A stretch of DNA of 60,563 nt from contig SHVL01000007.1 in the NCBI GenBank assembly GCA_009694305.1, positions 1-60,563 of the forward strand, read 5' to 3'. The notes under the pieces were generated by a model. That model saw only the letters and a program-made list of their open reading frames with translations. It had not been told where the DNA came from and made no database searches. Every line of letters starts with the position of its first letter. Within the stretch, counting starts at the first letter, position 1. The position numbers and the translations under genes are program-made. The stretch comes from Thermoleophilia bacterium. GTDB taxonomy: Bacteria; Actinomycetota; Thermoleophilia; Gaiellales; Gaiellaceae. Of the stretch, positions 39,465 through 49,559 are shown in pieces.

Positions 39465-40085
39465 CTAACTGACGGCATAGACCCAGGCGCGCAGGCGTAC
39501 CTCGGGCGCGGTCTGCGGCATCGCCGCCACCTCCACCCCGCGCTCGGCGAGCGTCCAGGCGCCTTCCTCGTCGAGCTGCGCCGTCAACCCGGCGAACCCC
39601 GGCGGCGTCGCGTCGGAGCGAAGCGTGAAGATCACGTGCCCTCCCGCGCGCGTGATCCGCGTCAGCTCGCGCAGGCCCTCGGGCGGGGCATGCCCGGTCG
39701 TGAACACCCCGGAAGCGACCACCGCGTCGTAGGCGCCGTCCACGTAGTCCAGGGGGCCACCGAGCCTGCCTTCCCTGAGATTGCCGTAGACGCCCTTCTC
39801 CCGCGCGACCCCGAGCATCCCCGCCGAGAGATCCATCGCGTCGATGCGCGTGTAGCCGGCGTCACGAAGCCCGACGCCCAGCTGCCCCGTACCCGCCCCC
39901 GCGTCGAGGATCAGGGAGTCGCGCGCAACCCAGCGCCGTGTCACCTCGATGATCATCTCGGGGCCGAGCCAGGCCCAGCCGTCCCCGTCGTAGACGGAGG
40001 CGACCCGGTCGTACTCCGTTCGGAGCTCGTCGAGATTTCGTGCGCCGTAGACCCGCGACAGGTCGAAGGACAGTTCCTCGGTCAC
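39465..40085 (-). CDS. SAM-dependent class I methyltransferase, last gene of the choline/corrinoid operon
   Basis: A 206-residue Rossmann methyltransferase. Motif I is [13 protein letters not shown] (about residues 58-70), the acidic end of strand 2 is AMDLSAGML, and the N-terminus has the [13 protein letters not shown] block typical of Williams-Beuren-type / UbiE-like small-molecule methyltransferases. The start overlaps the betA stop by 4 nt, so it is co-translated with choline dehydrogenase. In an operon that removes methyl groups, a SAM-using enzyme is unexpected. It may remethylate an amine or balance H4folate-derived methyl, but the substrate is unknown. Confidence 0.82.
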
Positions 40086-41728
40086 GGGACGTGGCGGTAG
40101 AAATCGACATCCAGGGCGGGCAGCGGCGTGTTCCCGAGAATCAGGTCGGCGGCCTTCTCCGCGACCATCATCGTGGGGGCGTAGATGTTGCCGTTCGTGA
40201 CGTAGGGAAACACGGATGCATCAACGACGCGGAGTCCGTCAACCCCTCGTACCCGCATCGTCGCCGGGTCGATCACCGACATCTCGTCCACACCGAGCCG
40301 GCACGTGCACGACGGGTGCAGCGCGGTCTCGGCATCACGAGCGACCCAGTCGATGATCTCGTCGTCGGTCGAGACCGCCGGCCCCGGCGAGATCTCGCCT
40401 GCGTTGAACGGCTCGAAGGCCGGCCGGGTGAGGATCGTTCGCGCCGAGTGCACGGCCTCGAGCCACTCGCGCCTGTCCTGCTCGGTCGAGAGGTAGTTGA
40501 ACCGCAGCGCGGGATGCACGCGCGGGTCCTTCGAGGTGATCTTCACCGTGCCCCTCGCGTCCGAGTACATCGGGCCGACGTGCACCTGGTAGCCGTGATC
40601 GGCTGCCGGCGACGAGCCGTCGTAGCGGATCGCGACGGGAAGGAAGTGATACATCAGGTTGGGGTAGGCGACCTCGTCGCCTCCCCGGATGAAGCCACCC
40701 GCCTCGAAATGGTTCGTCGCGCCGGGGCCCGAGCGGAGAAACAGCCATCGGAGACCGACCCAGGGCCGGTTGCGCCACTTCATCGCCGGGGCCACCGAGA
40801 CCGGCTGTTTCGAGGCGTACTGGATGTAGACCTCGAGATGATCCTGGAGGTGCTCGCCGACACCGGGAAGATCGGCAACGACACCGATGCCGAACGCCTC
40901 GAGTTCGCGCGCATTGCCGATACCCGAGAGCTGGAGAAGTTGCGGCGAGTTGATCGCGCCACCGCAGAGGATCACCTCGCGCGCCTCGATCCGCTTCGGG
41001 CCTCTCCTGCCTGCGACCTCGACCCCGACCGCCCTCGTGCCCTCGAAAAGCACACGATTCACGAAGGTGCGCGTCCGTACCTCGAGATTCGGGCGGTGCA
41101 TCACCGGATGGAGATACGCCCGCGCTGCACTGAGCCGACGCCCGCGATGGATGTTGCGGTCGAAGGCGGCGAAGCCCTCCTGCTTGTACCCGTTGACATC
41201 GTCGGTGAGTGGGTAGCCGGCCTCCTGGACCGCCTCGAAGAACGCCTGGAAGAGCGGGCTCGTCGCCGGGCCACGCTCGAGCACGAGCGGGCCGTCGCCA
41301 CCGCGGTAGTCGTCTGCGCCCGCGAGGCAGTTCTCCATCCGCTTGAAGTACGGGAGGCAGTGCGCGTAGTCCCAGGTGCCCATCCCCGCATCGGCGCCCC
41401 AGCGCTCGTAGTCGAGCGGGTTGCCGCGCTGGAAGATCATCCCGTTGATGCTCGAGGAGCCGCCGAGCACCTTGCCGCGGGCGTGATAGACCCTGCGACC
41501 GTTCATGTGCGGCTCGGGCTCCGACTCGTACTTCCAGTCGTAGAACCTGTTGCCGATCGGCGTCGCGAGCCCTGCCGGCATGTGGATGAAGATGTCCCAC
41601 CTCGAGTCAGGGCGCCCTGCCTCGAGCACGAGGACACGGTTCGCAGGATCGGCGCTGAGACGGTTGGCGAGCGCACACCCGGCGGAGCCGCCACCGACGA
41701 TCACGAAGTCGTAGGGGCGATCGCTCAC
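40082..41728 (-). CDS. betA: Choline dehydrogenase (GMC oxidoreductase)
   Basis: 548 residues, highly similar in layout to E. coli BetA. It has the FAD loop [16 protein letters not shown] at the N-terminus, then [20 protein letters not shown] (GMC signature 1) and [15 protein letters not shown] (signature 2). It keeps the BetA-specific [11 protein letters not shown]-like stretch (here [14 protein letters not shown]), with catalytic His 471 in AETALHPSC and Asn 514 in VTNGN. It oxidises choline to betaine aldehyde and onward. There is no betB nearby. It lies 30 nt after metF, the only open junction in the operon, and is coupled to the methyltransferase downstream. It is likely to supply glycine betaine to the corrinoid methyltransferase. 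Confidence 0.9.
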
Positions 41729-41758
41729 AGCAGGAGCCTACTCCGATCCGGCATGCGT

Positions 41759-48076: not shown

Positions 48077-48780
48077 TGCGCTCCGGTCACCTTCGCGGCG
48101 GCACGACGGGCGAGGACGAGTGCCTGCGCCATCTCGGCCGCGACCGCGGCATCGCGGCAGTACGCGTCGGCACCGACGGCCAGGCCGAATTCCTCGTTCA
48201 GCGGCGCGCCACCAACGAGCACGATGTGGTCGTCGCGGAGCCCCTTCTCGTTCAGCGTGTCGATCACGACCTTCATGTACGGCATCGTCGTCGTCAGGAG
48301 CGCCGAGAGGCCGAGGATCTCGGGCTGATGCTCCTCGAGCGCCTCCAGATACTGCTCTACGGGGGTGTTGATCCCGAGGTCGATCACCTCGAAGCCGGCA
48401 CCCTCGAGCATCATCGCGACGAGGTTCTTGCCGATGTCGTGGATGTCGCCCTTGACCGTGCCGATCACGACCTTGCCGATCCGCTCGACGCCGGTCTCGG
48501 CGAGCAGTGGGCGGAGAATGGTCATCCCGGCCTTCATCGAGTTCGCTGCGAGCAGCACCTCGGGGACGAAGAGGATGCCGTCACGGAAGTCGATCCCGAC
48601 AATCCTCATCCCGCCCACGAGCGCCTCGTTCAGCACCCGGTCGGGCGCCCAGCCACGGCCGAGCAGGATGTTCGTCCCCTCCGTGATCTCGGGTGCAAGG
48701 CCGTCGTAGAGGTCGTCGTGCATCTGGGTCACGAGATCGTCGTCGGCAAGCGCGTTCAGGTCGATCTCCTCGTCGCTCAT
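48073..48780 (-). CDS. Corrinoid (B12-binding) protein, methyl carrier of the operon
   Basis: A 235-residue two-domain protein. The N-terminal helical cap (about 1-100, with FVPEVLLAANSMKAGMTILR) is followed by the Rossmann B12 domain with the lower-ligand motif GDIHDIGKN (D112-x-H114-x2-G117) and GLSALLTTTMPYMK. It accepts a methyl group from the MttB-family enzyme and hands it to the folate methyltransferase. It is the second gene, directly after the IclR regulator with a 4-nt overlap, which suits a carrier needed in quantity. Confidence 0.93.
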   Translation of the reverse strand: MSDEEIDLNALADDDLVTQMHDDLYDGLAPEITEGTNILLGRGWAPDRVLNEALVGGMRIVGIDFRDGILFVPEVLLAANSMKAGMTILRPLLAETGVERIGKVVIGTVKGDIHDIGKNLVAMMLEGAGFEVIDLGINTPVEQYLEALEEHQPEILGLSALLTTTMPYMKVVIDTLNEKGLRDDHIVLVGGAPLNEEFGLAVGADAYCRDAAVAAEMAQALVLARRAAAKVTGAQ

Positions 48781-49559
48781 GCGGCACCTCGTTTCGGGTG
48801 GTCGTAGCCAATGCGGGTTGACAGGGTGGAAGCCTCGTCCCGGACGAGCCGGCCGAGCTCGTCGAGCAGCCCGTCATGCAGGCGGACTGTCGGCCCGGAG
48901 ACGCTCAATGCAGCGATGACGGTGCCGCCCGCGTCGCGGACGGGAGCGGCGACGGCCCAGAGGCCGGGCTCGAGCTCGTCAACGGCGGTCGCGTAGCCAC
49001 GGACGCGCGTTCGTTCGAGGTCGCGGCGCAGCCCGGCCAGATTGGTGATCGTCCGCGGCGCGAGCCGCTCGAGCGTCCCCTCGGGCATCGGCAGGGCACC
49101 GTCTGCGAGAAAGACCTTGCCGATCACCGAGCCGTGGTGGGGCACGCGCTGGCCGACCCAGTTGGTGGAGCCGACGATGTGGCGGCTGTCGCGCTGATCG
49201 AGCATCTCGACGGCGGACGGTGTCGCGACGCCGAGGTTCGCCGTCTCGCCGCTGACGTGCGCGAGCCGCTCGAGCGCGCCGCCGGCGAGCTCGACGAGAT
49301 CCAGCCCGGAGGTCTCCTTGCGGGCGTAGCGCAGCAGCACGGGACCGGGCTTGATCGTGCCGCGAGCAGGATCGCGCTGGACGAGGCCCTGGCGCTCGAG
49401 TGCTCCGACGAGACGCGATGTCGTGCTCTTCGGCAGGCCTGCGAGCTGCGCGAGCTCACCGACCGTCGGCGCCTCGTCTTCCTCGACGACGTGCACGAGC
49501 AACTGCGCGCCACGCTCCATCGACTGGGTTCCGGTCTGCACGGTCACAGGGCCATCCAA
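48777..49559 (-). CDS. IclR-family transcriptional regulator of the corrinoid operon
   Basis: 260 residues from TTG 49559; the ATG at 49520 (MERGAQLL) is a real alternative, because the recognisable domain begins there. The winged helix-turn-helix has APTVGELAQLAGLPKSTTSR (about residues 30-49) and RQGLVQRDP as the wing. The C-terminal effector-binding GAF-like domain has SVIGKVFLADGALP and the long stretch ending VAAPVRDAGGTVIAALSVSG. It is the first gene of the ten-gene unit and is preceded at 10 nt by a perfect 18-bp palindrome. A quaternary amine such as choline or betaine is the likely effector (inference). Confidence 0.88.
   Translation of the reverse strand: MDGPVTVQTGTQSMERGAQLLVHVVEEDEAPTVGELAQLAGLPKSTTSRLVGALERQGLVQRDPARGTIKPGPVLLRYARKETSGLDLVELAGGALERLAHVSGETANLGVATPSAVEMLDQRDSRHIVGSTNWVGQRVPHHGSVIGKVFLADGALPMPEGTLERLAPRTITNLAGLRRDLERTRVRGYATAVDELEPGLWAVAAPVRDAGGTVIAALSVSGPTVRLHDGLLDELGRLVRDEASTLSTRIGYDHPKRGAA

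Follow-up and report, generated by a model that had tools for sequence, protein, structure and literature searches.

An aerobic glycine betaine demethylase, MtgBCD, was described in Ruegeria pomeroyi in 2025 (PMC12478193); according to the excerpted text of that paper, mutants in mtgC and mtgD showed no growth on betaine, and the MetF2, RamA and DUF1638 proteins rose on N-osmolytes. The genome carriers named there are Alpha-, Gamma- and Deltaproteobacteria, with 5% of reads placed in the Actinomycetota. Among open-licence PubMed Central (PMC) texts, as far as titles and the beginnings of abstracts go, this was the only paper found to describe such a system when actinobacterial betaine demethylation was searched for. 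Here we report a ten-gene operon of a Thermoleophilia bacterium (contig SHVL01000007.1 of assembly GCA_009694305.1; the whole stretch of 60,563 nucleotides (nt) that was analysed is referred to as the window), which runs on the minus strand from 49559 to 39465 and encodes, in this order, an IclR-family regulator, a corrinoid protein (MtgC), a DUF1638 protein, a PF13769 protein, a pterin methyltransferase (MtgA), a RACo-like activator, an MttB-family methyltransferase, a MetF-like protein, the choline dehydrogenase BetA and an S-adenosylmethionine (SAM)-dependent methyltransferase. We read it as an IclR-controlled operon using choline and glycine betaine as a one-carbon source, and put the probability of this reading at roughly 0.78.

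The resemblance to the Ruegeria system, as presented in the excerpted text, extends to a PF06253 methyltransferase, a separate B12 protein, a pterin methyltransferase, a RamA-type activator, a DUF1638 protein and a metF paralog. The window contains a non-pyrrolysine PF06253 protein, a PF02310 protein with a DxHxxG motif, a PF00809 methyltransferase, a RamA/RACo-type and DUF1638 reactivation pair and a MetF paralog (a weak match, for which oxidation is predicted). Unlike in Ruegeria, these genes are translationally coupled in a single operon that also encodes an IclR regulator and a choline dehydrogenase of its own, the host is an actinobacterium which retains a MetH-like protein, and a PF13769 protein is present; the term “virulence factor”, by which this family is known, does not occur in the main text of PMC12478193. 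The MtgABC system of Desulfitobacterium hafniense, as described in the excerpts of the same paper, is alike in reaction type and subunit set, but the MttB protein of the window matches the D. hafniense enzyme with 410 bits and the Sinorhizobium meliloti chain 4yyc with 702, and its MtgC falls under the curated MtgC cut-offs. The split methionine synthase (MtgCDE) of Phaeobacter inhibens shares a corrinoid protein, a pterin methyltransferase, a RamA-like protein and DUF1638 (PMC5764234, excerpted text), but no homocysteine-binding subunit is encoded in the operon and a MetH-like protein is encoded elsewhere in the genome. In the MthABCK system of Eubacterium limosum an MttB-superfamily methyltransferase feeds tetrahydrofolate from choline (PMC12155760, excerpted text); E. 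limosum phosphorylates choline first, whereas the present operon encodes a choline dehydrogenase, and the scanned open reading frames (ORFs) of the window matched no choline-kinase family. The core chemistry is not new, and the operon is a known pathway in a new arrangement; what is added here is a comparative case for choline, an operator, an exchange of cassettes and the PF13769 component.

The place, order and overlaps of the ten genes given in a preliminary description of this DNA were all reproduced. Eight of the nine junctions overlap when computed, seven of them by 4 nt (IclR/MtgC, MtgC/DUF1638, PF13769/MtgA, MtgA/RACo, RACo/MttB, MttB/MetF and BetA/SAM methyltransferase) and DUF1638/PF13769 by 8 nt, with MetF and BetA separated by a 30-nt gap. 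Some of the start codons are a matter of choice: the IclR gene begins with TTG (49559) or a later GTG, the MttB frame is open upstream (854 amino acids) of the start taken at 44151, and the RACo gene has a second ATG 21 nt downstream (46172), so that the MtgA/RACo overlap depends on the start picked. A 20-nt tandem duplication (46169-46188 and 46190-46209) lies across the end of the MtgA gene and the start of the RACo gene, and both in-frame RACo ATGs have GGAGG in front of them. Neither an RNA element nor a tRNA was detected in the window.

Families were assigned with Pfam and NCBIfam profile searches against the cut-offs of the models, and those proposed previously were borne out save for the subtype of the activator. 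The IclR-family regulator (48777-49559, minus strand, as are all ten genes) matches PF01614 with 109.5 bits and is probably an autoregulatory repressor of the operon. The MtgC-like protein (48073-48780) carries the B12-binding domains PF02310 and PF02607 and the sequence DIHDIG, an instance of the DxHxxG pattern which we take to be the cobalamin motif of a corrinoid protein. It is followed by the DUF1638 protein (47390-48076; 107 bits), a presumed partner in corrinoid reactivation, and by the small PF13769 (“virulence factor”) protein (47095-47397; 82.6 bits), a recurrent component of the core. The predicted methylcorrinoid:tetrahydrofolate methyltransferase (MtgA/MtgD; 46190-47098) matches Pterin_bind (PF00809) with 103.8 bits and NF005719 with 361.1 bits (cut-off 259). 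The next protein (44148-46193) had been called a RamA-like activator; it is indeed a corrinoid activator by its profiles, but with its ASKHA and other RACo domains and an N-terminal 2Fe-2S (Fer2) domain it has the architecture of RACo/AcsV instead of RamA proper, whilst scoring under the cut-offs of both AcsV (NF040756, 382.1 versus 800) and RamA (TIGR04270, 110.4 versus 500). The MttB-family protein (42610-44151), the putative glycine betaine:corrinoid methyltransferase MtgB, covers the entire MTTB profile (PF06253) with 738.6 bits; its gene contains no in-frame TAG, in agreement with the earlier view of an enzyme without pyrrolysine. A divergent MetF-like protein (41759-42613), predicted to oxidize methyl- to methylenetetrahydrofolate, precedes the BetA-type dehydrogenase of the GMC family (40082-41728), which scores 822.3 bits against TIGR01810 (cut-off 732.1), its closest solved chain being 9lq0_A, named an oxygen-dependent choline dehydrogenase (603.5 bits); its activity on choline is predicted. 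The last gene encodes a SAM-dependent methyltransferase by profile (39465-40085), for which no counterpart was found among the ORFs called beside the operon of genome G006, a relative discussed below.

The distribution of the core was analysed by scanning genome contigs with the MttB protein and considering the best 80 of 94 related loci, the stored flanks being short for some contigs. At E ≤ 1e-8, MtgC, DUF1638 and the pterin methyltransferase were each found within the flanks of 29 of these loci, RACo in 32 and PF13769 in 23, and at many loci MttB stands alone. By hand count, PF13769 directly follows DUF1638 in 21 of the 23 loci that have it. A survey of actinobacterial genomes for the same gene order had been proposed, and the order MtgC-DUF1638-PF13769-MtgA-RACo-MttB was met in both Thermoleophilia and Acidimicrobiia, whilst in Halieaceae the same core is reordered with MttB first and at some loci MetV-like and MetF genes lie between PF13769 and MtgA. 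As distant genomes share this core order with the operon, it is not a product of chance.

The host assembly (G000) comprises 2.47 Mb in 98 contigs, is 97% complete and contains a single PF06253 match. The nearest named relative contig comes from a Thermoleophilia metagenome-assembled genome of the same genus (G001), whose MttB is 93% identical, which supports the actinobacterial host that had been surmised from the letters. A tree of MttB proteins (109 rows, 100 of them different) was built by a quick method and only its broad clades were used, as the program issued a long-branch warning that included the clade of the second cassette described below. The MttB of the window belongs to a clade of 78 rows that also contains S. 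meliloti 4yyc and proteobacterial, acidimicrobial and Chloroflexota proteins (Shimodaira-Hasegawa-like approximate likelihood ratio test, SH-aLRT, 99), a second clade holds proteins from genomes of the same family and the same order (25 rows, SH-aLRT 99), and the D. hafniense enzyme stands apart. Several MttB homologues with a single in-frame stop, mostly TAG, occur in other genomes of the same class (G118, G119, G123, G128, G133, G138, G143 and G148), and these stops suggest that pyrrolysine-type MttB proteins may also be present in this class.

From this gene content, order and conservation a pathway can be proposed, each enzymatic step of which is a prediction. BetA would oxidize choline to betaine aldehyde, which would become betaine through an aldehyde dehydrogenase encoded elsewhere or through BetA itself. 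The MttB-family enzyme would then demethylate glycine betaine once to give dimethylglycine, the methyl group being taken up by the Co(I) corrinoid on MtgC and handed on to tetrahydrofolate by the pterin methyltransferase. The MetF-like protein, to which no role had been given previously, would probably convert methyl- to methylenetetrahydrofolate, whilst the RACo-like protein and DUF1638 may re-reduce cobalamin that has slipped to Co(II) and PF13769 may assist the core. Dimethylglycine could be demethylated further by dimethylglycine dehydrogenase (DMGDH)-like and SoxBA-like proteins, whose genes lie elsewhere in the genome. IclR would bind an operator at the presumed start of transcription until an inducer, for which choline, betaine and dimethylglycine are candidates, releases it.

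The conversion of choline into dimethylglycine and methyltetrahydrofolate, already suggested in the preliminary description, gains comparative support from DMGDH-like and permease genes beside related operons and from an exchange of choline dehydrogenases. BetA follows MetF in the host, in G001 and in G006, and in G069 the place after MetF is taken by an unrelated choline dehydrogenase of the GbsB type (592.7 bits versus a cut-off of 550; the only match over the cut-off in ten genomes). The next gene there encodes an aldehyde dehydrogenase that shares 65% identity with its counterpart in the second cassette. The operons of G024 and G006 are adjoined by DMGDH-like proteins of 839 and 838 amino acids, 77% identical, the former with the domain order DAO-FAO_M-GCV_T-GCV_T_C, and by an ATP-binding cassette (ABC) permease of the choline/betaine type. 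Farther along in both genomes lie genes for a trimethylamine N-oxide (TMAO) demethylase and formate-tetrahydrofolate ligase (FTHFS), both over the cut-off in G024 (the former with 1207 bits versus 1100), and for SoxA/SoxB-family proteins, which fall below it. As a further observation, the orthologous operon of G024 (loci L122-L124) is surrounded by a methylated-amine island in which the TMAO demethylase, FTHFS and SoxA-family genes are accompanied by genes of the ammonium-transporter family. DMGDH-like proteins are also encoded near the second-type cassette in G011 and G053, and a DMGDH-type match occurs in 28 of the best 80 of 94 loci, some of which may be other flavin adenine dinucleotide-binding or GcvT proteins. 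The host itself encodes a DMGDH-like protein on contig C94, 75% identical to that of G024, and on contig C17 FTHFS and a second BetA (70% identical), both over the cut-off, as well as SoxA/SoxB-family and ammonium-transporter-family proteins, which are below theirs; this island (L130, 1-20000) also holds a type III glutamine synthetase.

A number of points weigh against this reading. Glycine betaine as the substrate of MttB is a prediction from the neighbouring genes. Even in Ruegeria the mutants reported are those of mtgC and mtgD and not of mtgB (PMC12478193, excerpted text), which falls short of proving the substrate of this MttB clade. Within the operon, MtgC scores below both NCBIfam MtgC cut-offs (204.8 versus 370 and 159.6 versus 310), and the score of MetF (MTHFR PF02219, 37.6 bits) is weak yet above the cut-off of 24. 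A betaine aldehyde dehydrogenase gene is lacking from the operon; none of 11 such matches in the host genome exceeds the TIGR01804 cut-off, nor does any in the other seven genomes searched, and the host has no close ortholog of the operon-linked aldehyde dehydrogenase (best 40%). No domain of an aldehyde dehydrogenase, a betaine/choline/carnitine transporter (BCCT) or an ABC transporter was detected in the scanned ORFs of the window, small or doubtful ORFs not all having been scanned, and the transporters that were found are of the major facilitator superfamily and EamA types. Amongst the neighbours, the ABC permeases lie just below their cut-off (354.9 and 351.5 versus 363), and neither BetA nor GbsB was seen beside the operon or MetF in G024. 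The domain layout of the DMGDH-like proteins is found in sarcosine dehydrogenases as well, the SoxA/SoxB-family proteins of the host are those with scores below the cut-offs, and in the host both the DMGDH-like and SoxBA-like genes are on contigs other than that of the operon.

The alternative which survives best, unlikely though we consider it, is that the substrate of MttB is a different quaternary or sulfonium compound, such as proline betaine, carnitine, dimethylsulfoniopropionate (DMSP) or choline or phosphocholine itself, and that BetA oxidizes a different alcohol. The substrates of the MttB superfamily vary, including proline betaine, carnitine, gamma-butyrobetaine and, in Eubacterium, phosphocholine (PMC12478193 and PMC12155760, excerpted texts), and the stretch 33937-35073 close by encodes a GcvT-family protein that is similar to the TMAO and DMSP demethylases, with scores below the cut-offs. 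Against this, the repeated presence nearby of DMGDH-like proteins and an ABC permease of the choline/betaine type, together with the exchange of BetA for GbsB, points to choline and betaine, and a phosphocholine route finds no choline kinase among the Pfam matches of the scanned window ORFs, the remaining genome not having been searched for one.

Control of the operon is suggested by a palindrome, GTGGAAC-N4-GTTCCAC (49570-49587, core 49571-49586), a candidate IclR operator which is a conserved single-copy motif common to both types of cassette. The shorter form TGGAAC-N4-GTTCCA occurs exactly once, directly upstream of iclR, in six of the eight genomes searched, three with the first cassette (G000, G001 and G006) and three with the second (G011, G053 and G027), where 0.06 sites per genome would be expected from composition; the reversed pattern used as a control gave one site, in G001. 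No exact site was found in G024 or G069, where the operon is accompanied by an IclR gene of only about 36% identity on the opposite strand. The start codon used follows 4-12 nt after each site, and the arms of the sites are kept whilst the centre varies. Similar palindromes precede iclR in some relatives at the level of the order (e.g., L020, L021 and L029); other such relatives have an imperfect one or none. When up to two mismatches were allowed, three extra operator-like sites appeared in the window, one of them (35018) with a single mismatch; shuffled sequences gave a mean of 1.04 matches and reached four in 1 of 100 cases. A candidate sigma70-like promoter, by consensus match only, is formed on the minus strand by TTGTCA (49617-49622) and TAGACT (49594-49599) with a 17-nt spacer, and a pair with such a spacer precedes five of the six operator sites, no good pair being found at the sixth (G027).

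The -10-like hexamer ends 7 nt upstream of the operator core, an arrangement which fits repression, and the direction of regulation and the inducer proposed above are to be read as predictions; no open-licence PMC text was found that links IclR with betaine, choline, an operator and demethylation. It could also be argued that IclR is an activator or answers an unrelated signal and that the operon is mainly osmotic, BetA making betaine and demethylation tuning the pool. The products of BetA are osmolytes in many bacteria. This explanation is nevertheless quite improbable, since a complete set for demethylation and one-carbon oxidation in one transcription unit suits catabolism and the position of the operator suits a repressor. 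That the operon chiefly feeds methionine synthesis as a split methionine synthase, with betaine as a side substrate, has very little to commend it: related MtgC/MtgD proteins do serve methionine synthesis in P. inhibens and R. pomeroyi (PMC5764234 and PMC12478193, excerpted texts) and single-domain PF02574 proteins are encoded on contigs C24 and C39 of the host, but the operon lacks a homocysteine-binding gene, its MetF-like gene suggests that the methyl group is oxidized, and it is not expected to be the methionine synthase of the host because a MetH-like open frame of 1202 amino acids (PF02574 and a B12-domain match) is present in the genome, where PF01717 had no match.

The second cassette under this operator is carried by G011, G053 and G027, all of the same family as the host. 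Identity to the proteins of the window is 56-57% for IclR, 47-56% for MtgC, 54-55% for MtgA, 37-38% for RACo, 37-44% for DUF1638 and 44-46% for MttB, yet 77-79% for BetA. In all three genomes an aldehyde dehydrogenase lies, by position, between MttB and BetA, and in G011 MetV-like and MetF genes follow MtgC. The set is on a single contig in G011 and G053; in G027 the IclR gene and operator are at the end of contig C8 and the remainder on C6, and we infer contiguity there as in G001, where the operon of the first type is divided over C217 and C211. PF13769 was not among the matches in the three genomes, two of which are 81-85% complete, so that a related core can do without it.

Amongst 151 genomes, PF13769 was found in 37 and an MttB match in 54, with both in 32, PF13769 without MttB in 5 and MttB without PF13769 in 22 (relatedness uncorrected). 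In two of the five genomes with PF13769 only (G039 and G052) it adjoins RACo and DUF1638, on short contigs where a missed MttB is possible, and its occurrence therefore seems tied to the core and not to the substrate enzyme. An alignment of 24 sequences has eleven invariant columns, and although the predicted model is a confident one (predicted local distance difference test, pLDDT, 94.5) it gave no Foldseek match at E 0.001 or better and a best Z of 3.1 in a second structure comparison. No paper on PF13769 was found in open-licence PMC text, and of the CvfC papers listed there (8 of 42) none has a title that bears on the matter. We rejected the idea that PF13769 replaces MetV, as by hand count PF13769, MetV-like and MetF co-occur in five loci (L049, L067, L072, L078 and L081), in one run with MtgC and DUF1638. 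At one locus (L134, contig C85 of G092) PF13769 adjoins a PF02574 homocysteine-methyltransferase-type gene, with an MttB gene nearby. We put forward tentatively, giving it slightly less than an even chance, a combined proposal in which PF13769 is a dedicated subunit or assistant of the aerobic corrinoid core, for instance by maintaining the activity of MtgC or the pterin methyltransferase in the presence of air, and in which the Thermoleophilia have retained a conserved IclR operator whilst whole methyl-transfer cassettes and unrelated choline dehydrogenases were swapped behind it.

DUF1638 has four residues, C37, H66, C97 and C120, that are invariant in 24 sequences. Its predicted model (pLDDT 86.2) gave three Foldseek hits to transcarbamoylases at E 0.001 or better, which were not trusted given TM-scores of about 0.25, and resembled glutamate racemase with a Z of 8.6 over 112 residues (root-mean-square deviation 3.5), which is near the level of unrelated two-lobed proteins listed with it, and no function was therefore assigned. 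Searches of PDB sequences with the alignments of both PF13769 and DUF1638 returned hits at chance level only. Fitness data from P. inhibens bear on DUF1638, for which the authors offer no specific proposal in the excerpted text (PMC5764234).

As for the surroundings, an amine-oxidase-like flavoprotein, a PfkB sugar kinase and a 2-keto-3-deoxy-6-phosphogluconate aldolase are encoded directly upstream of the operon (49597-52698), the first two being found upstream in G001 as well (L141). Two sets of molybdenum hydroxylase genes (xanthine/carbon monoxide dehydrogenase family; 35203-38788 and 52746-56538) flank the region on opposite strands. The plus strand at 31487-35073 encodes a crotonyl-CoA carboxylase/reductase (492.9 bits, cut-off 378.55), an acyl-CoA dehydrogenase and the GcvT-family protein mentioned above. 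Purine synthesis proteins are encoded at 7405-15234, about 25 kb from the operon, namely 5-aminoimidazole-4-carboxamide ribonucleotide transformylase/inosine monophosphate cyclohydrolase, a formyl transferase, an aminoimidazole ribonucleotide-synthase-type protein and an amidotransferase, two of which use folate one-carbon units. An ISXO2-like transposase domain (35-478) lies near the left end of the window.

If the reading preferred here, of choline and glycine betaine as a one-carbon source, is correct, the aerobic B12-dependent betaine route would extend from the Pseudomonadota to an actinobacterial operon equipped with choline oxidation and a dedicated switch. The exchange of BetA and GbsB in one slot and the single operator per genome would provide direct handles on the substrate and the inducer, respectively, and the comparisons identify both PF13769 and DUF1638 as conserved core components.

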